A stretch of DNA of 64,000 nt from Fervidobacterium thailandense. Its GTDB lineage: Bacteria > Thermotogota > Thermotogae > Thermotogales > Fervidobacteriaceae. The stretch lies in contig NZ_LWAF01000005.1 in the NCBI RefSeq assembly GCF_001719065.1, forward strand, positions 1 through 64,000. Direction: 5' to 3'. The first letter of the stretch is position 1. Each line of letters starts with the position of its first letter. Of this stretch, positions 1,244-55,686 are shown piece by piece. Position numbers and translations under genes: made by a program. The notes below the pieces were generated by a model, which was not told the origin of the DNA, ran no database searches, and was given only the letters and a program-made list of their open reading frames with translations.

Positions 1244-1430
1244 GCAAGTATGAGAATTAATTCACTAACTTTTGGTTTTTGGGCTTCTGAGGTGGAGGAC
1301 TCAACGTCTGACACCGAGGAAGAGGGGTAAGTTTAAGCCGATAAGTTTAAGCCGACTTGAGTTATCCTGTTTGCGTTGCTAATGGTATCCCCTTTTCCCG
1401 GTGCTCAGGCGGGAAAAGGGGATTTTATTT
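1244..1430 (+). promoter_or_regulatory. Structured leader with terminator/antiterminator, candidate riboswitch
   Basis: A 14-bp perfect hairpin (1387–1400 with 1410–1423) followed by a T-rich run sits between the promoter and the first gene, as an intrinsic terminator would. The sequence GGAAGAGGGG at 1318–1327 is complementary over 10 pairs (one G·U) to CCCCTTTTCC at 1389–1398 in the terminator's 5' arm, so it can act as an antiterminator. The same GAAG (1319–1322) can instead close an upstream stem with CTTC (1284–1287), stacked on GGTG/CACC (1291–1294, 1312–1315). ACTCAA (1299–1304) can pair at long range with TTGAGT (1357–1362). A 14-bp tandem repeat lies at 1328–1341 and 1342–1355. It does not match any riboswitch consensus I know. 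Confidence 0.6.
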
Positions 1431-1447
1431 TTGGGAGGAAAGATAAG

Positions 1448-1730: not shown

Positions 1731-3140
1731 ATGTACGTGTTTGTAAAAGAACTCGATACCGAAAAGACATTTATTCCCGAGGGAGAGATTCACTCGCTAC
1801 TTGAGGAGACGAAGAATCCGGACAAAAAGTTCGTACGTGAGATTCTTCAGAAGTCCTTGGAGAAAAACCGACTCGAGCCAGTTGAAGTGGCGACGCTGCT
1901 AAACGTTGAGGATCCAGAACTCATCGAGGAAATTTTCGCGGCTGCGCGTACCTTGAAGGAGAAGATTTACGGTAACCGAATCGTACTCTTTGCACCACTC
2001 TACATCGGAAACGATTGTGTCAATGACTGTGTCTACTGTGGATTTCGAAGTTCCAATCCAGAAGTCTACCGCAAAACACTCACGTTCGACGAGCTGAGAA
2101 AAGAAGTTGAAGCACTGGTAAAACGCGGGCATAAACGCTTGATAGTGGTCTACGGCGAGCATCCACGTTACAGTCCGCAGTTCATTGCCGAAACGATAAG
2201 GATCATCTACGAAACGAAGGTGGGTAATGGAGAAATCAGACGTGTCAACGTCAACGCGGCACCTCAAACGGTGGATGGTTACAAGGTTATCAAGGAAGCG
2301 GGTATAGGCACTTTCCAGATCTTCCAGGAAACGTACCATCAGCCAACTTACAAAAAACTCCATCCACGCGGTCCGAAATCCAACTACGCGTGGAGACTTT
2401 ACGGACTGGATCGCGCGATGATCGCTGGTATTGACGATGTGGGAATTGGAGCCCTCTTTGGACTTTACAACTGGAAATTCGAAGTGATGGGCTTGATTTA
2501 CCACACCATTCATCTGGAGGAAAGGTTTGGTGTAGGGCCACACACGATTTCCTTCCCGCGTATCGAACCTGCTATTGGGAGCGAAATTTCCTACAATCCA
2601 CCGTATAAGGTCAGCGATGAGGAATTCAAACGTCTCGTAGCTATTATAAGATTGGCTGTGCCGTACACGGGCATGATCCTAACGGCGCGCGAGCCCGCGG
2701 AACTGCGCAGGGAAGTTCTGAAGCTTGGTGTTTCACAAATCGACGGTGGTTCGAGCATCGGTATAGGCTCGTACTCGCAGGATGATCCAGAGAAGGTTAG
2801 AAAGAGTCAGTTCATCCTCGGTGACAACAGGAGCTTGGAGGAAGTCATTCGGGACTTGCTTAGGGAAGGGTATATCCCATCTTTTTGTACGGCATGCTAT
2901 CGCATGGGTAGGACCGGGGAACACTTCATGGAATTCGCAATACCAGGTTTTGTGAAGAGGTTCTGCACACCGAACGCACTGTTCACACTGAAAGAGTATC
3001 TAAACGACTACGCTTCGGAAGAGACCAGGAGGCTTGGTGAGGAACTAATAAAGATGGAACTTGAGAGAATTGAGAAGCGCGAACTCGTCGAGAAATACTT
3101 AGAGCGCATAGACCGTGGTGAGCGTGATGTCAGATTTTGA
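1731..3140 (+). CDS. hydG: [FeFe]-hydrogenase maturase HydG (radical SAM tyrosine lyase)
   Basis: HydG cleaves tyrosine to p-cresol and dehydroglycine to supply the CO and CN ligands of the hydrogenase H-cluster. The protein (469 residues) shows the radical SAM motif as CVNDCVYC near residue 100. The HydG-specific C-terminal cluster site is present: CTAC, then 22 residues, then C in 'VKRFC'. Both sites separate it from the related ThiH. I chose the ATG at 1731, preceded by GGAAGGTGAG; a GTG nine bases earlier is possible. Its 3' end overlaps the next gene. The order regulator–hydG–small protein–hydE matches Thermotoga maritima TM1266–TM1269 as I recall it. Confidence 0.95.
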   Translation: MYVFVKELDTEKTFIPEGEIHSLLEETKNPDKKFVREILQKSLEKNRLEPVEVATLLNVEDPELIEEIFAAARTLKEKIYGNRIVLFAPLYIGNDCVNDCVYCGFRSSNPEVYRKTLTFDELRKEVEALVKRGHKRLIVVYGEHPRYSPQFIAETIRIIYETKVGNGEIRRVNVNAAPQTVDGYKVIKEAGIGTFQIFQETYHQPTYKKLHPRGPKSNYAWRLYGLDRAMIAGIDDVGIGALFGLYNWKFEVMGLIYHTIHLEERFGVGPHTISFPRIEPAIGSEISYNPPYKVSDEEFKRLVAIIRLAVPYTGMILTAREPAELRREVLKLGVSQIDGGSSIGIGSYSQDDPEKVRKSQFILGDNRSLEEVIRDLLREGYIPSFCTACYRMGRTGEHFMEFAIPGFVKRFCTPNALFTLKEYLNDYASEETRRLGEELIKMELERIEKRELVEKYLERIDRGERDVRF

Positions 3141-3378
3141 AAGGCTCAGCGAGATTCTAAAGCCATACGCGGAAATATTAAACACCAAAATATGGTTGTG
3201 TGAGAAAATTGGAAAGCGCTTGTCGTGCATAGCACGCGCTGGAGAGGAGACGTATTCAGAATCCTACGTCGTCTACGAGGATCAAAAGTACGTACTCTTT
3301 GCCGAGCGTGAGCTTTCGGATGATGAAAAAGTGAAAGCTGAAGAGATCATACGTGCCGTCGAAAAGGCACGAGGGTAG
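3127..3378 (+). CDS. Small conserved protein between hydG and hydE (TM1268 position)
   Basis: The gene encodes 83 residues from the ATG at 3127 and overlaps the end of hydG by 14 bases, which indicates translational coupling. The text is charged, with two cysteines (in WLCEK and LSCIA) and a central β-rich segment. I recognise no domain. Its position between hydG and hydE is the same as TM1268 in T. maritima, so a role in hydrogenase maturation is a fair inference, but no activity can be read from the sequence. Confidence 0.7.
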   Translation: MSDFERLSEILKPYAEILNTKIWLCEKIGKRLSCIARAGEETYSESYVVYEDQKYVLFAERELSDDEKVKAEEIIRAVEKARG

Positions 3379-3394: not shown

Positions 3395-4423
3395 ATGTTG
3401 GAAATTTCGAAGATCCGGAATGTTGACCTGGATTATCTTACCTATTTGCTCACCACATCCGAACACGACGAGGAAATTTTCGCTACGGCGGACGAGATGA
3501 GGCGAAAGTACGTGGGTGATGAAGTTTACCTCAGGGCGATAATCGAATTTTCGAACGTCTGTACTCAAAATTGCCTCTATTGCGGATTGAGGGCACAGAA
3601 TTCTTCGGTAAGACGCTATAGGATGTCAGTTCAAGAGATAGTGGAACGAGCCGAATTTATCGCAAAGCTTGGTGTTATCGGCACTGTGGTCCTGCAATCA
3701 GGAGAGGATCCCTACTACGACACCAAGATGGTGACTGAAGTCATCATGCGTATAAAGTCACTTGGGCTTGCAATAACGCTTAGTCTGGGAGAGCGATCAT
3801 TCGAAGAGTACCGAGTCTGGAAAGAAGCTGGTGCGGATCGCTACTTACTCAAGCATGAAACAGCTTCTCCACAACTTTACGCTCGTTTGCATCCCGGTGA
3901 CAGCTTAGAAAGTCGGAAGGCGCACCTTTTGGAGCTTAAGCGGCTTGGTTATGAAACGGGAACGGGCTGCATGGTGGGACTACCAGGCCAAACTCCATAC
4001 GACCTTGCGCTCGATTTGGCATTCTTCAGGGAGTTGGATGCCGATATGGTTGGGATCGGGCCGTTCATTCCCCACCCCGGTACTCCACTCGCGCACTCGA
4101 AGGGTGGAGACGTGAAAACAACACTAAAAATGGTAGCACTCACAAGAATCATATTACCGGATGCGAACATACCCGCAACCACGGCGCTCGGGTCCATAGA
4201 CAAAGACGGAAGGTTACTTGCTCTCAAGTGTGGTGCAAATGTAATAATGCCGAACCTGACACCAAATGTGTATCGGGATAAATATGAAATATATCCCGGA
4301 AAATCAAGTTTTTATGATACCGACCTTGAAGCCGTTCAAAAAGCTCTAAAAACAATTGAGGCGGCTGGGCTTCGTTTAGGCAGAGGGCCTGGCGGAAGGA
4401 GACGAATCGAAGCTTTAGTTTAA
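3395..4423 (+). CDS. hydE: [FeFe]-hydrogenase maturase HydE (radical SAM)
   Basis: HydE is the second radical SAM enzyme of H-cluster assembly and acts in making the dithiolate-bridged diiron precursor. The protein has 342 residues, typical of the family, with CTQNCLYC near residue 55 binding the SAM [4Fe-4S] cluster. 'SGEDP' follows, as in BioB/HydE relatives, and 'GCMVGLPGQT' further on. The ATG at 3395 follows a weak ribosome site (GGGTTGGTGA). It is the last gene of the operon. A hairpin directly after it serves mainly the convergent gene. Confidence 0.93.
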   Translation: MLEISKIRNVDLDYLTYLLTTSEHDEEIFATADEMRRKYVGDEVYLRAIIEFSNVCTQNCLYCGLRAQNSSVRRYRMSVQEIVERAEFIAKLGVIGTVVLQSGEDPYYDTKMVTEVIMRIKSLGLAITLSLGERSFEEYRVWKEAGADRYLLKHETASPQLYARLHPGDSLESRKAHLLELKRLGYETGTGCMVGLPGQTPYDLALDLAFFRELDADMVGIGPFIPHPGTPLAHSKGGDVKTTLKMVALTRIILPDANIPATTALGSIDKDGRLLALKCGANVIMPNLTPNVYRDKYEIYPGKSSFYDTDLEAVQKALKTIEAAGLRLGRGPGGRRRIEALV

Positions 4424-4483: not shown

Positions 4484-4756
4484 TCACGAATCGAGCTCAA
4501 GACGCATGTACTTGGCCTTAACTCCGTCGATTTGGTTCAGTTTCTGGCAGAGTTCTTCATGTTTGGTCTCGTCATCAACCAATTCGAGGATGATGAGACC
4601 GACTGGTGAGCAGTATTGTCCAGCACCTTCGTGGAGTCCGAGCCTGGTTTTAATGTAGCAACCGTACTCCGTTAGTAGTTTTTGAACCTCGACGGCTGCT
4701 TGTTCTCTCTTGTCAACCAAAACGGCCATGACCGTGCGTACCGTGATATCGCGCAT
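4484..4756 (-). CDS. Second TM1266-family small regulator-like protein
   Basis: A 90-residue protein beginning 'MRDITVRTVMAVLVDKREQA' has the same small ACT/ferredoxin-like pattern as the protein at 1448–1705 (a duplicated β-α-β layout ending 'QIDGVKAKYM'), although overall identity is low. It contains 'GAGQYCSPVG', so one cysteine lies where a metal or effector could bind. It is transcribed against hydGE with its own terminator. A paralogous hydrogenase-system regulator is the best guess. What it binds is unknown. Confidence 0.65.
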   Translation of the reverse strand: MRDITVRTVMAVLVDKREQAAVEVQKLLTEYGCYIKTRLGLHEGAGQYCSPVGLIILELVDDETKHEELCQKLNQIDGVKAKYMRLELDS

Positions 4757-4939: not shown

Positions 4940-5680
4940 ATGAGAAAAAATTATCTTGTTGGGTTTCTCCTGCTACTGGGCTTTTGGTTGATCATCTCGT
5001 TGCTGGTCGGATCAGACTTGATACTTCCAACTCCCATAACGGTCTTCAACACACTCGTGGTACTGCTGAAAGACCCAAGGACGTACCAGGCCATTTTGAG
5101 TACGTTGACCAAGATATTGGTAGTACTCATCGCAACACTTACCGTTGGTGTGTCGCTGGGGTTCATCATTGGTCTGAGTGATAAAATCTATCAGCTTTTC
5201 CGACCCGCTATCTTGGTAATTCAGGCGGTACCGATTATCACCTGGCTGGCACTCGTGATGTTCGCTTTCGGGATCGGCTGGCTTGGACCTGTTGTGGTGA
5301 GTGTGCTCTCGCTCTTTCCGCACGTGCTGCTTACAACCGCCGTTGGCGTGAGATCCACGGACGTGAAACTTAAGGAGATGGCTATGATTTACAATGTTCC
5401 AAAGTGGAAGATAGTCCGGGATATTTACCTTGGGTCCGTGATTCCGCAGATGGTTGCCGCGTTGCAGGTTGTCATGGGGAACGTGTGGAAAGTTGTCGTC
5501 GTTGCCGAGTACATGTGCGGTGACCGTGGGATAGGGGTCATGATCGCTTGGGCACGACAATCGGTTGCGGTGGACAGGGTTTACGCTTACACGGCCATAA
5601 CAGTGATCGTGGGTCTTGTTGCGGAAAACATTTTGAACAGGTACACGCGAGCGTTGCTAAAGGAATGGGAGATCGCATGA
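4940..5680 (+). CDS. ABC importer permease (SsuC/TauC/ThiX-like)
   Basis: This integral membrane permease (246 residues) has about six transmembrane segments and an EAA-type loop near 'EMAMIYNVPKWKIVRDIYLGSV'. That places it with the nitrate/sulfonate/taurine/thiamin-precursor importers. The ATG follows AAAGGGAG. It overlaps the ATPase gene by four bases (ATGA). The transporter sits between hydE and hydF and upstream of the thiamin genes, so a pyrimidine or thiazole precursor, or a sulfur compound for cluster assembly, are possible cargoes. The sequence does not decide. Confidence 0.85.
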   Translation: MRKNYLVGFLLLLGFWLIISLLVGSDLILPTPITVFNTLVVLLKDPRTYQAILSTLTKILVVLIATLTVGVSLGFIIGLSDKIYQLFRPAILVIQAVPIITWLALVMFAFGIGWLGPVVVSVLSLFPHVLLTTAVGVRSTDVKLKEMAMIYNVPKWKIVRDIYLGSVIPQMVAALQVVMGNVWKVVVVAEYMCGDRGIGVMIAWARQSVAVDRVYAYTAITVIVGLVAENILNRYTRALLKEWEIA

Positions 5681-6363
5681 AGCTCAGAGTTACCAATCTT
5701 TCGAAGAATTTTGGGAAGCTGGAGGTTCTCAGGTGCATTTCTTTTGAGGTATCCGAGGGCGAGTCGATCGCTCTGCTCGGCCCATCAGGTTGTGGAAAAA
5801 CGACTATTTTGAGGATAGTGGCGGGACTTGAGCATGAAACAAGGGGGTACGTGGAACGTAACTTCTCGAGGCTTGCTTACGTTTTCCAGGAACCGAGACT
5901 GATTCCCTGGAAGACCGTCAGGGAGAATTTGAGGTTCGTCGTCGAGGACGACGAAAAAATCACAAAAATTCTGAGCGTACTCAGACTCAGCGGTTTTGAG
6001 GAGTTCAAACCCGCAAAACTCAGTGGTGGGATGCGGCAAAGGGTTAACCTTGCACGTGCTTTCTTGGTGGAACCCGATTTGATACTGATGGACGAGCCTT
6101 TTTCATCACTGGATCTTCACACGAAGTTGTCAATAATTCAAGATGTCAACAAGCGACGAGAAGAGGTAAGTTTTTCAATGGTGCTCGTTACCCACGACAT
6201 CAGGGAAGCGTTGCTACTTGCCGACAGAATTATTCTGCTCACCGACAAACCGTGCGTGGTTAGGAAGGAATACGATGTAACAAACGTTCCAAAGGATATC
6301 TTCGATCCACGCTTTACGGAAGTGGAGCGACTCATACTGGCTGATATCACAAACGCTCCGTAA
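5677..6363 (+). CDS. ABC importer ATP-binding protein
   Basis: The 228-residue ATPase starts at the ATG that overlaps the permease stop. It has Walker A 'GPSGCGKTT', the Q-loop 'VFQEPRLIPW', a signature 'LSGGMRQR', Walker B 'LILMDEPFSSLD' and the switch histidine in 'VTHDIREA'. The wording is that of the SsuB/TauB group. It forms the energising subunit for the permease at 4940–5680 and works with the binding protein at 6420–7340. Confidence 0.9.
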   Translation: MKLRVTNLSKNFGKLEVLRCISFEVSEGESIALLGPSGCGKTTILRIVAGLEHETRGYVERNFSRLAYVFQEPRLIPWKTVRENLRFVVEDDEKITKILSVLRLSGFEEFKPAKLSGGMRQRVNLARAFLVEPDLILMDEPFSSLDLHTKLSIIQDVNKRREEVSFSMVLVTHDIREALLLADRIILLTDKPCVVRKEYDVTNVPKDIFDPRFTEVERLILADITNAP

Positions 6364-6419
6364 ATTCATAACCTGGTCAGCGTTCAACAGGAAAAACGGA
6401 TGTCTGGAGGTGGATAGGT

Positions 6420-7340
6420 ATGAAAAGAACACTCGTTCTGACTGTTACCTTACTTGCGGTTTTAGTGCACGCTGTGGTGTTCATCAACCCGTTCGGCCCG
6501 ACGATCTTCCCGATAGCAGGACTTTTGTCGAAAGAAGTAAAAACCGAGATGGCGTTGGATATCAAGTTTTGGCGCACTCTTGATGAAGCTACCGCTTACA
6601 TCGTTTCAAAGAAGGTGAATTTCGCGGCGTTACCGGTGACTTTCGGTGCGAATCTTTACACCAAAGGTATCGATGTGAGGTTGATAGGTGTTTACAGCTG
6701 GCGACTCTTTTACGTCGTTGCCCAGCAGGATTTTGAGTTCAAAGGATATCAGAGTTTTAAAGGAGAGCAAATTTACACGGCTCATGCACGCGGTCAAACG
6801 GCTGACGTGGTGCTCAGGTACTTGTTGGTAAAGAACGGACTTGAACCTGACAAAGACGTGCGATTTGCTTACGCGCAACCGCAGGAGATTGTCTCACTTT
6901 TCAACGCAGGTAAGATAAAGCTCGCAGCCGTTCCAGAACCTTTCGTTACAATGATGCTATCGAAAGGGAAAATAATACTGGACCTTCAGGAGGAGTGGAA
7001 CAGGGCGAGCGGTACCAAGTACGGCATACCGATCACGGGGCTGTTCGTTACAGGAAAGTTAGCCGATTACGCTGGAACAGTTAGACTCTTCGAAAGATCC
7101 TTCGTAAAATCACTGAACTGGTCGTACCAAAATCTTGACAAAGCTGTTGATATTACGAGTAAGCAACTCGGTATTCCAGTTGCTGTGTTGAAGACCTCGT
7201 TGCAAAGAAGTCAATACAACTACCTCTCCGCGAAAGATTGTAAAGACGAGGTGTTGCATTACTTGAAGAAACTGAACGAACTCTATCCGGAAGGACTTCC
7301 AAAGGTTCCGGACGAGAAGTTCTTTTTCGTGAACTTCTGA
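6420..7340 (+). CDS. ABC importer substrate-binding protein (NMT1/THI5-like or TauA-like)
   Basis: The 306-residue protein has an N-terminal signal peptide (hydrophobic residues about 5–20) and a periplasmic binding fold of the nitrate/sulfonate/NMT1 class. The pattern '[15 protein letters not shown]' followed by '[15 protein letters not shown]' is typical of that class. No lipobox cysteine is seen. A 56-base gap separates it from the ATPase, with a ribosome site GGAGGTGG. The ligand is unknown; the gene neighbourhood makes a thiamin precursor one candidate, but the TPP riboswitch lies downstream and not in front of this operon. Confidence 0.8.
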
Positions 7341-7371: not shown

Positions 7372-8592
7372 ATGCTCCCTACGAGCGGGTTTAGAAAGTT
7401 CATCTCGATAGTGGGACGTAGAAACGTGGGGAAATCATCGTTCATGAACGCACTCATCGGGCAAGACATCTCCATCGTGAGTGATACCCCTGGAACAACG
7501 ACTGATCCAGTCCACAAGGCGATGGAGCTCCACCCACTCGGTCCGGTCACACTCATCGACACCCCTGGACTTGACGATGTGGGCGAGCTTGGAGAAAAGC
7601 GTATCCAGAAGGCGATTAAGTCGTTCTACAAGTCCGACGCGGGGATTCTCGTGGTGGACGATGAACCTGGAGAGTACGAAAGGCGCATCGATGAACTCTT
7701 CAGAAAACTGGAGATTCCGTATATTGTTGCCGTGAACAAGGCGGATGTTCTTGGAAACCGGGCTTTTCACATTGCCGAACTCTACCGCTCCGAGTTCGGG
7801 GTGGAAGTTGCCGTCGTAAGTTCTGCTAAGAAAGAAGGTTTTGAGAAGATTCCGGAGTTATTGAGTCGCATAATGCCGGAGGATACGGAGATTCCGTTCA
7901 TTCCGGATTTTGTGAGCGTTGGTGACACGGTCGTTCTCGTCGTTCCCATAGATTCCGGTGCGCCGAAAGGACGGTTGATAATGCCACAGGTGCACGCAAT
8001 CAGGGAAGTGATCGACAGGCAAGCCTTCGCGTACGTTGTCAAGGAACATCAAGTTTGGGAAGCAATTTCGAGACTCAACGCAAAACCCGTACTTGTTGTC
8101 ACCGACTCGCAGGCGATTATGAAAGTTGCCCCACAGGTGCCGGAAGATGTATATCTGACAACATTTTCTATCCTCGAAGCACGCTACCGCGGGGATATCG
8201 AATATTTCGTTGAAAGCGTAACGGCGATAGAGGAACTGAAGGACGGCGACACAGTCCTCATCATGGAAGGGTGCACGCACAGACCACTTTCGGAGGATAT
8301 CGGACGCGTCAAAATTCCAAACTGGCTAACGAAACACACCGGTGCAAAGTTGAACTTTAGAGTCTGGGCTGGTGTGGAAATGCCCGAGTACGAAGAGGTC
8401 GCGGATGCGAAGCTCGTTATCCACTGTGGGGGATGTGTGAACACGAGAACTCAAATCATGCGACGTGTCAGGATGTTCAAAAGGCTTGGGATTCCCATGA
8501 CAAATTACGGGATAGTTATATCCTACCTCCACGGAGTCCTGGACAGAGCACTTAAACCTCTGGGATTGACATTTAAAATGGACAGGGTATAA
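7372..8592 (+). CDS. hydF: [FeFe]-hydrogenase maturation GTPase/scaffold HydF
   Basis: HydF is the GTPase scaffold on which the diiron subcluster is built before transfer to the hydrogenase. The 406-residue protein has an N-terminal GTPase with G1 'GRRNVGKSS', G3 'DTPGLDD' and G4 'NKAD', then a dimerisation domain. The C-terminal cluster domain has the family's ligand pattern: CTH near residue 302, then HCGGC about 50 residues later. The ATG has a perfect GGAGGAAG site. Separation from hydGE by an importer is unusual enough to suggest that the importer serves the same process. Confidence 0.95.
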
Positions 8593-8611: not shown

Positions 8612-8718
8612 GATCGACCCGAAGGGGAGCTCCTACGGTGCGGGGCTGAGAGGAGGGAGGCAATCCCTCGACCCTTGGAACCTGATCCGGGTAATACCGG
8701 CGGAGGGATTCGGGTCGA
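8612..8718 (+). promoter_or_regulatory. TPP riboswitch (THI element)
   Basis: The conserved TPP aptamer core is present: 'GGGGCTGAGA' at about 8642, then 'ACCCTTGGAACCTGATC' and 'GGTAATACCGGCGGAGGGA'. The ends 'TCGACCCG' and 'CGGGTCGA' form P1. The 3' portion GGCGGAGGGATT (8699–8710) is complementary to AATCCCTCCGC at 8771–8781, the 5' arm of the downstream terminator. This gives a classic choice between antiterminator and aptamer/terminator. It controls thi4–thiC–11 kb gene–thiDN by TPP-dependent transcription termination. Confidence 0.97.
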
Positions 8719-8770
8719 CGTGACGTGGAAACAAAGTATCGCCGAAGTGAAAAGTGAAATCAAATCGTAG

Positions 8771-15785: not shown

Positions 15786-15835
15786 GTAAATGATGAAAGG
15801 ATAATTCGAAAGGCTGAAAAAGTGAATATCCCCAA

Positions 15836-15994
15836 CCGCAAAGGTGCGACGAGCTTAAAAGGGAACTCCGGTGAAAGTCCGGGACGGTCGGGCCACCGTG
15901 AGTGGGGACGAAACCCGCAAGAAGCCACTGGCCAAGCGGCTGGGAAGGCGCGGGGAGTAGGATGATCCACGAGTCGGGAGACCTGCCTTTGCGG
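15836..15994 (+). promoter_or_regulatory. Cobalamin riboswitch (B12 box) before sucC-like gene
   Basis: The consensus parts of the cobalamin aptamer are in order: 'AAAAGGGAACTCCGGTGAAAGTCCGG' split over J/P3, 'GTGGGGACGAAACCCGC', the B12 box 'AAGCCACTGG', 'GGGAAGGCG', 'GTAGGATGATCC' and 'AGTCGGGAGACCTGCC'. P1 forms between CCGCAAAGG (15837–15845) and CCTTTGCGG (15986–15994). A terminator follows directly, so B12 should reduce expression of the sucC/sucD-like genes. Confidence 0.95.
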
Positions 15995-15996
15995 GA

Positions 15997-16033
15997 TGGT
16001 TTTCCCAAAAACCATCGATTTTTGGGGAAATTT
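15997..16033 (+). terminator. B12-riboswitch expression-platform hairpin
   Basis: GATGGTTTT and AAAACCATC form a hairpin followed by GATTTTTG. The alternative pairing CCCAAAAA with TTTTTGGG overlaps it, so two exclusive folds exist, as expected for an attenuator. Confidence 0.75.
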
Positions 16034-27014: not shown

Positions 27015-27052
27015 ACAAACAATTTCCCGACAAGCCCGAGCTTGCGGGAAAT
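27015..27052 (-). terminator. Terminator of the cobT-operon B12 riboswitch
   Basis: On the minus strand TTTCCCG-CAAGC and GCTTG-T-CGGGAAA form a long stem followed by TTGTTTG. It sits between the aptamer and cobT, where ligand binding would favour termination. Confidence 0.8.
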
Positions 27053-27057
27053 ACATA

Positions 27058-27213
27058 CCCTCAAGGCCGGTCTCCCGGCTCGCGGATCATCCTACTCCCC
27101 ACGCCTTCCCAGCCAGTTGGCCAGTGGCATACTGTGGGTTTCGTCCCCGCTCACGGTTGCTGGGCAGCCCCGGACTTTCACCGGTGTTCCCGCTTGATGA
27201 CACCTTGAGGGGA
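27058..27213 (-). promoter_or_regulatory. Cobalamin riboswitch before the cobT operon
   Basis: Read on the minus strand the aptamer shows 'AAGCGGGAACACCGGTG', 'AAAGTCCGGGGCTGCC', 'GAGCGGGGACGAAACCC', the B12 box 'ATGCCACTGG', 'GGGAAGGCG' and 'GTAGGATGATCC'. P1 pairs CCCTCAAGG with CCTTGAGGG. Its target is the cobamide salvage operon itself, the usual feedback arrangement. Confidence 0.95.
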
Positions 27214-27238
27214 AGTTCTATCATTATTTTTCGATTTC

Positions 27239-51153: not shown

Positions 51154-51515
51154 GGGGGCGAACGGTTTCGACGGGGGTAGGCCTCCTCGGGAAGCGAGCC
51201 GAGGTTGCCTGCCGTCCTCGTAAAAAAACGGCAGGGAAAAGATAAGTGCCAACGAATACGTTCCTCTCGCTGCCTAATTAGTTAAGGCAGCCGTCCACCA
51301 CGAGGGTTGGCTGGCCCCTTGTGGTTGGGCGTGACCCAGCCAGCCAGGTAACCGGACTGCGCCTCACGGTCCGAGTTACCTTAGCCAGTGAGGCTGGTCA
51401 CAACGGAGCCTGTCTGTGGGCGCCGTTGTGGCGAGAACTAAAACACAGACTGCGCTCGGAGATGCCCGAGGGGACTTACTTTCGGACGCGGGTTCGATTC
51501 CCGCCGCCTCCACCA
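51154..51515 (+). ncRNA. ssrA: Transfer-messenger RNA (tmRNA)
   Basis: The 5' end GGGGGCG pairs with CGCCTCC before an encoded ACCA at the 3' end, and the T arm GCGGG-TTCGATT-CCCGC is intact, forming the tRNA-like domain. The start 'GGGGGCGAACGGTTTCGACG' is a standard tmRNA opening. The tag frame at 51248–51277 reads ANEYVPLAA and then TAA, with the usual AA proteolysis end. Several GC-rich pseudoknot stems fill the rest. It rescues stalled ribosomes with SmpB. Confidence 0.97.
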
Positions 51516-55587: not shown

Positions 55588-55662
55588 GGCCCCTACTGGA
55601 TATCCAGTAGAGGCCATCAGCTCGAAGATTTCGAGCGGTTAAGGGTGAGCCTCATCACCCGG
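55588..55662 (-). promoter_or_regulatory. Fluoride riboswitch (crcB motif) with terminator
   Basis: On the minus strand 'GGGTGATGAGGCTCACCC', then 'TTAACCGCTCG', then 'CGAGCTGATGGCCTCTAC' follow the fluoride-aptamer plan very closely, including the GATGAGGC pseudoknot half and CTGATGGCCTCTAC, as in the Thermotoga petrophila structure. The 3' end continues into the hairpin GGCCTCTACTGG/CCAGTAGGGGCC, which shares aptamer sequence and acts as terminator. Fluoride should therefore promote read-through into the MutS-like pair. Confidence 0.95.
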
Positions 55663-55686
55663 TATATTATCGGTCCTTGCGACTCT

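Follow-up and report, generated by a model that had tools for sequence, protein, structure and literature searches.

The question raised by this locus is how an RNA leader of about 200 nt, lying between a promoter and a terminator, controls the genes behind it, which run in the order TM1266, hydG, a small ORF and hydE, and what the leader responds to. The control of H-cluster assembly is largely obscure, and TM1266 is annotated as a 'putative regulator' with no mechanism attached. The features concerned lie in the window, by which we mean the whole stretch of 64,000 nucleotides of Fervidobacterium thailandense DNA that was analysed, and are as follows.

1208–1236, + strand: sigma-70-type promoter, TTTACA-17-TATAAT, with a TG extension (extended −10), 11 of 12 matches
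1284–1322, + strand: conserved symmetric hairpin (match to covariance model R1, covariation, relatives)
1312–1327, + strand: 3′ strand of the hairpin and antiterminator strand, CACCGAGGAAGAGGGG, with 15 pairs to 1389–1403 (−26.4 kcal/mol)
1387–1423, + strand: intrinsic terminator, 14-bp stem and 9-nt loop, then a U-rich tract to 1432
1389–1403, + strand: terminator 5′ arm and start of its loop, partner of the antiterminator strand in the pairing computation
1433–1439, + strand: ribosome-binding site of TM1266, GGGAGGA
1448–1705, + strand: TM1266-family protein, the proposed RNA-binding sensor (TIGR03959, PF21699, homologue of PDB 2nzc)
1734–3140, + strand: hydG, H-cluster radical SAM maturase, target gene
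3127–3378, + strand: small ORF between hydG and hydE, without Pfam or NCBIfam match
3395–4423, + strand: hydE, H-cluster radical SAM maturase, target gene
4484–4753, − strand: TM1266 paralogue of the CPF_0552 family, divergent to the ABC transporter
4940–7337, + strand: NMT1-like ABC transporter, between hydE and hydF
8613–8726, + strand: TPP riboswitch (Rfam)
15825–16004, + strand: cobalamin riboswitch (Rfam)
27048–27222, − strand: cobalamin riboswitch (Rfam)
51154–51515, + strand: tmRNA gene (Rfam)
55601–55668, − strand: fluoride riboswitch (Rfam)

The gene for hydF begins at 7372, 3′ of the NMT1-like transporter, which separates it from hydE. Small ORFs of a size like that at 3127–3378 lie between hydG and hydE in several other Thermotogota, and none is seen there in the genus labelled g20.

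The leader has the layout of a transcription attenuator, in which a promoter is followed by a terminator ahead of the first gene, and an antiterminator pairing excludes an upstream hairpin. The strong promoter and the 14-bp terminator named in the preliminary description are both present, the arms of the terminator stem (1387–1400 and 1410–1423) being perfectly complementary over 14 bp. The pairing of GGAAGAGGGG (1318–1327) with the terminator 5′ arm also holds and proves longer than first described, comprising 15 pairs and one bulge between 1312–1327 and 1389–1403. GAAG (1319–1322) does close the upstream stem with CTTC (1284–1287), and because the same GAAG takes part in the antiterminator pairing the two folds are mutually exclusive. 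A loop–loop contact that had been suggested stands only in part: ACTCAA (1299–1304) does match TTGAGT (1357–1362), but such matches are not conserved, the longest loop–spacer match averaging 4.4 nt against 4.1 nt in shuffled sequences across 39 leaders, and the contact was rejected as a chance-level one. The spacer between hairpin and terminator carries a perfect tandem duplication of 14 nt (1328–1355, two copies of TAAGTTTAAGCCGA) that is missing from the sister genome G001.

The upstream hairpin is 39 nt long and has the consensus (P1) CUGA-GGUG-RAGG, loop, CUGA-CACC-RAGG (P1′), found as one block upstream of TM1266 in most Thermotogota. In the window, P1 is formed by CUUC and GAAG (1284–1287 with 1319–1322) and is followed by U1288·G1318 and a tandem G·A/A·G; the 4-bp P2 is formed by GGUG and CACC (1291–1294 with 1312–1315) and is followed by a tandem G·A/A·G and G1297·U1309; P3, GAC with GUC, is topped by a variable loop. 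Both internal loops are the same tandem G·A motif and flank P2, giving the hairpin a two-fold pseudo-symmetry.

Taken as a single sequence, leader and terminator together fold at −66.5 kcal/mol (z = −3.4, an energy matched by 0 of 200 shuffles); a z of only −1.2 remains once the terminator is removed, so that fold energy is no proof of the upstream part, and it is the comparative data that supply it. Among 37 sequences, 93% of cells pair and 8 of the 14 pairs vary on both sides; cells with changes on both sides number 61 against 19 in shuffles, sliding controls being far lower, and the score for covariation reaches 0.336, shuffles giving 0.180 and slid versions 0.237 at most. In P2, GAUG/CAUC occurs naturally in place of GGUG/CACC. 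With the other hyd sites and distant members added there are 86 such cells against 30 in shuffles, and 31 more pair types. The first set was gathered by likeness to the consensus, and conservation of the core is therefore in part a selection effect, which the compensatory changes are not. The unpaired loop residues are near-identical in the 37 divergent sequences and are kept in other phyla as well; the upper loop differs between lineages. With its covarying stems and conserved loop residues, the hairpin has the conserved features expected of a riboswitch aptamer.

R1, a covariance model trained on Thermotogota only, has matches to the element in 64 of 103 Thermotogota genomes (best E 8e-16), so that the conserved pairing in relatives for which a covariance search had been proposed is indeed present; in the window, itself one of the seeds of the model, R1 matches 1277–1327 (54.7 bits, E 3.3e-13). 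At the sites that were read, the genes 3′ of the element are TM1266 (in TM1266-hydG-hydE), hydG, hydE, hydF and hydA. First sites lie ahead of TM1266, hydG (loci L091, L093, L095–L098), hydE (L102) or hydA (L100, L103), and second sites, read one by one, ahead of hydF (L085–L090, L099). In L092 the element precedes an NMT1-like ABC transporter just 3′ of hydA, of the type found between hydE and hydF in the window. The upstream regions of 20 TM1266 paralogues hold no similar element, and the paralogue at 4484–4753 (− strand) was dismissed as an owner of one; in ten distant genomes with TM1266, outside Thermotogota, no element precedes solo hydF either. Variant elements (CUGC-GGU) occur upstream of hydG in L200 (458–590, + strand) and L201 (100–283, − strand), and there the 5′ strand, not the 3′, is complementary to the terminator region that follows (CCUGCGG with CCGCAGG).

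No Rfam 15 family scores above its gathering threshold in the leader, even at permissive settings, and 20 loci of relatives, also searched permissively, contain no known cis-regulatory family, in keeping with the earlier statement that no known riboswitch consensus fits. A match to the Molybdenum cofactor riboswitch (RF01055) in L031 (15.4 bits, E 0.18, cut-off 36) is a chance-level hairpin coincidence: RF01055 resembles the element in being a cis-regulatory RNA of a metal-cofactor biosynthesis operon, but the matched pairs are not those of the element. Matches of microRNA-like families are likewise hairpin coincidences. Literature searches on a hydG riboswitch, TM1266 and hydrogenase leader RNA returned nothing relevant, and no functional paper on TM1266 was found among the literature searched. 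Hydrogenase is absent from the main text of a 26-genome ncRNA survey that includes Thermotogae (PMC8632094), and the main text of a T. maritima transcriptome paper mentions neither TM1266 nor attenuation (PMC3636130). As judged by sequence comparison, the leader is a previously uncatalogued RNA element outside all Rfam families, common to Thermotogota and some other bacteria. That it is an attenuator-type leader ahead of the maturation operon, as was first proposed, is strongly supported by its covariation, its presence in 64 genomes, the hyd genes downstream and the lack of a matching Rfam class.

All 39 Thermotogota leaders compared have this pairing between hairpin 3′ strand and terminator 5′ arm (mean 14 pairs, −26.6 kcal/mol). 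In window RNA made as far as 1404, the antiterminator fold (−45.0 kcal/mol) is better than the hairpin fold (−40.9 kcal/mol) by 4.1 kcal/mol; in the finished leader, hairpin plus terminator reaches −66.5 against −58.4 kcal/mol. These energies suggest that read-through is the default during transcription, and that termination would follow if some factor stabilised the hairpin by a few kcal/mol. No terminator is present in L090 (ahead of hydF) or in L172 and L154 (ahead of TM1266), where the 3′ strand (GAGGAGG, GAGGAG) is the Shine-Dalgarno site itself, so that a formed hairpin would mask the site and turn the gene OFF. Both layouts would predict the same sign, the genes being OFF when the hairpin is formed. 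In L091 and L093 (two genomes of family f5) the element lies within the 300 bases upstream of hydG, and its 3′ strand is the Shine-Dalgarno site of a very short ORF; a terminator comes between this ORF and hydG, as if the element controlled translation of a leader peptide.

All 64 Thermotogota carriers of the element have TM1266. Five HydG+ genomes without TM1266, all of one genus (G064, G068, G075, G077, G079), are without the element; G066, of the same genus, has both TM1266 and the element at a site next to the tmRNA gene, where two of the five TM1266− genomes were read and have no element. Over all 70 HydG+ Thermotogota the association of element and TM1266 gives a Fisher p of 5e-7, which overstates its independence since the five losses may be one event. 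Among ∼290 genomes of other phyla, R1 was run on the TM1266+ ones and places the element directly upstream of TM1266 in G138 (8e-9), G220 (2e-4), G227 and G379 and of hydG in G243; two adjacent matches are weak (E ∼0.24 per genome), and by our estimate the chance of a weak match falling within ∼300 nt of these genes is of the order of 1e-4 or less each. G243, which is not among the seeds of the model R2, is found by R2 as well, with E 9e-5 when the short loci are searched and 0.0046 genome-wide. R2 has seven seeds from distant genomes, for which its E-values are circular; G147, G165 and G242 served as R2 seeds. Most other TM1266+ genomes of these phyla (G117/G264, G119/G266, G147, G165, G176/G318, G180, G194/G332, G217, G242, G279, G342, G380) have divergent versions ahead of TM1266 or hydG, recognised by eye or from weak scores. 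G048 has no element near either gene, and G240, G296, G337 and G360 have no convincing one. In none of 49 HydG+ TM1266− genomes of other phyla does R1 have a match adjoining hydG, an absence that is weak case by case since R1 misses most TM1266+ outgroup genomes.

Ten genomes from several families carry TM1266 and the element together though unlinked (G049, G056, G058, G061, G063, G070, G071, G080, G243, G380); in G063, TM1266 lies at 650 kb, and hydF and hydG have their elements at 1,492 kb and 1,911 kb, respectively. Linkage is thus no explanation of the association, which points to action in trans, and the element accompanies TM1266 as a protein-responsive attenuator read by TM1266 should, also when the two are apart. 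Across these genomes the distribution of the element is that of TM1266 and not that of the H-cluster pathway, which makes a protein-responsive attenuator more likely than direct ligand sensing. Its restriction to TM1266 carriers suggests that TM1266 acts by binding RNA.

The TM1266-family protein of the window (85 aa) is 58% identical to 2nzc, which is T. maritima TM1266, a solved member of the family. Its predicted model (pLDDT 93) is a beta-alpha-beta-beta-alpha-beta sandwich, and the nearest folds to this model are the NikR C-domain (2bj3_A, TMq 0.81) and ACT domains (3ibw_A, 0.77). The NikR C-domain senses nickel, and both it and the ACT domains are oligomeric ligand sensors. NikR controls DNA through an RHH domain, whereas TM1266 has neither this nor any other DNA-binding domain. 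In 21 diverse TM1266 members R41, G43, G70, G73, V78 and K81 are invariant and K71 is nearly so. It seems reasonable to regard a stand-alone, oligomerising sensor domain, as modelled here, as a plausible reader of a two-fold symmetric RNA. The literature searched records no RNA role for a NikR-C/ACT-like fold; if TM1266 binds RNA, such a role would be added to this sensor fold.

The computations establish the element with its base pairing, the two exclusive folds, the genes targeted and the co-occurrence with TM1266; from these we infer TM1266 binding and the OFF sign. The sensor element would be the 39-nt pseudo-symmetric hairpin of a transcription attenuator. By default its 3′ strand would pair with the terminator 5′ arm, giving antitermination (ON); a stabilised hairpin would let the terminator form and turn the TM1266-hydG-hydE operon OFF. 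The stabilising factor is most likely TM1266 itself, which would bind, probably in dimeric form, to both of the identical tandem-GA loops. TM1266 would thereby act as a repressor of the operon that encodes it and of further hyd transcripts (hydF, hydA, hydG, hydE), and the repression would respond to a signal such as a metal, a cofactor or an amino acid. We put the probability of this reading, an attenuator whose hairpin is stabilised by TM1266 binding and which represses hyd transcripts, at about 60%. With slightly less confidence, though still on the favourable side of even, we suggest that TM1266 founds a new class of RNA-binding regulators, stand-alone NikR-C/ACT-like sensors reading a symmetric tandem-GA hairpin, and that attenuation and Shine-Dalgarno masking control the whole [FeFe]-hydrogenase assembly regulon in several phyla. 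The proposal names a specific RNA target, lists the genes that would be controlled and predicts the sign of the control; the preliminary interpretation as a whole is partly supported.

The main rival is a true riboswitch, in which the hairpin binds a small molecule directly, probably in two copies, and turns the genes off. Candidate ligands would be an H-cluster precursor, an iron species, tyrosine or cysteine, or a SAM-related compound, and TM1266 would be one of the controlled genes or handle the same compound. Such a reading fits the conserved unpaired GA/RA loops in a short attenuator, the conservation across phyla ahead of one pathway, with the same OFF logic in transcriptional and translational layouts, and the element ahead of the transporter in L092, a kind of gene that riboswitch regulons often include. 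However, pathway intermediates would be expected in the HydG+ TM1266− genomes (5 Thermotogota, 49 others) in which the element was not found, a variable upper loop is unusual for a binding pocket, and Rfam offers no similarity; the loss of TM1266 together with the element argues against TM1266 as a mere regulated gene of a riboswitch. We consider direct ligand binding unlikely, but should TM1266 not bind RNA, the element would become a candidate for a new riboswitch of hydrogenase assembly.

Tandem-GA loops are commonly recognised by proteins, and the hairpin might be bound by another RNA-binding protein, either a general factor or the product of the small ORF at 3127–3378, with TM1266 co-occurring incidentally. 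That ORF is present in several of these operons; L104 has no such ORF between hydG and hydE, nor, by coordinates, do g20 genomes with both element and TM1266, and it was discarded as the partner since element-positive genomes lack it. No other family among those scanned was found to track the element, and a different binder appears improbable. Least probable of all is a constitutive or temperature-dependent leader with a fixed level of read-through and no specific sensor. The balance between the folds is only ∼4 kcal/mol and most Thermotogota considered here are thermophiles, both of which would suit it, but a passive leader would not need unpaired loop residues that are near-identical in 37 divergent sequences and kept in other phyla. 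In T. neapolitana under CO2, TM1266, hydE and hydG rise 6.0-, 7.5- and 6.4-fold (PMC7039931, Table 3), and this 6–7-fold change, which shows strong regulation of the operon but not its route, also speaks against a fixed level. The hydF gene of T. neapolitana changes only 1.28-fold, though hydF genes of that order carry the element, and this counts against our proposal of TM1266-mediated repression.

The proposed TM1266-dependent attenuator can be set beside two known types. PyrR sites (RF00515) and other protein-controlled attenuators have a protein-stabilised hairpin that excludes an antiterminator and turns OFF the operon encoding the protein, the same logic of stabilisation and autoregulation that we propose here. 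The PyrR site has a sub-threshold match in one relative only (28.0 bits, cut-off 54) and none in the window, and TM1266 is not a PyrR. The RAT of LicT/SacY (BglG family) is a short hairpin, pseudo-symmetric like the element, in which the two internal loops resemble each other and to which a dimeric protein binds; it also shares one strand with an intrinsic terminator. It differs in sequence and loops, and RAT binding turns genes ON, whereas the hairpin of the element would predict OFF. Its reader is a CAT/PRD protein, to which the NikR/ACT-like TM1266 is unrelated, and none of the operon products (TM1266, HydG, HydE, the ORFs) has a CAT domain. By analogy, the leader would work like a protein-controlled attenuator such as those of PyrR and LicT, as a member of neither group.

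The compound carried by the NMT1-like transporter may be connected with hydrogenase assembly or with the signal. A search of a plasmid collection at the DNA level gave no match; a similar arrangement is seen on the Vescimonas fastidiosa plasmid pMM35_01, where an ABC transporter, including its substrate-binding protein, is encoded behind a gene of the TM1266 family. In several genomes of family f9 (L049, L051, L206, L207) the hyd locus lies directly 3′ of the tmRNA gene.
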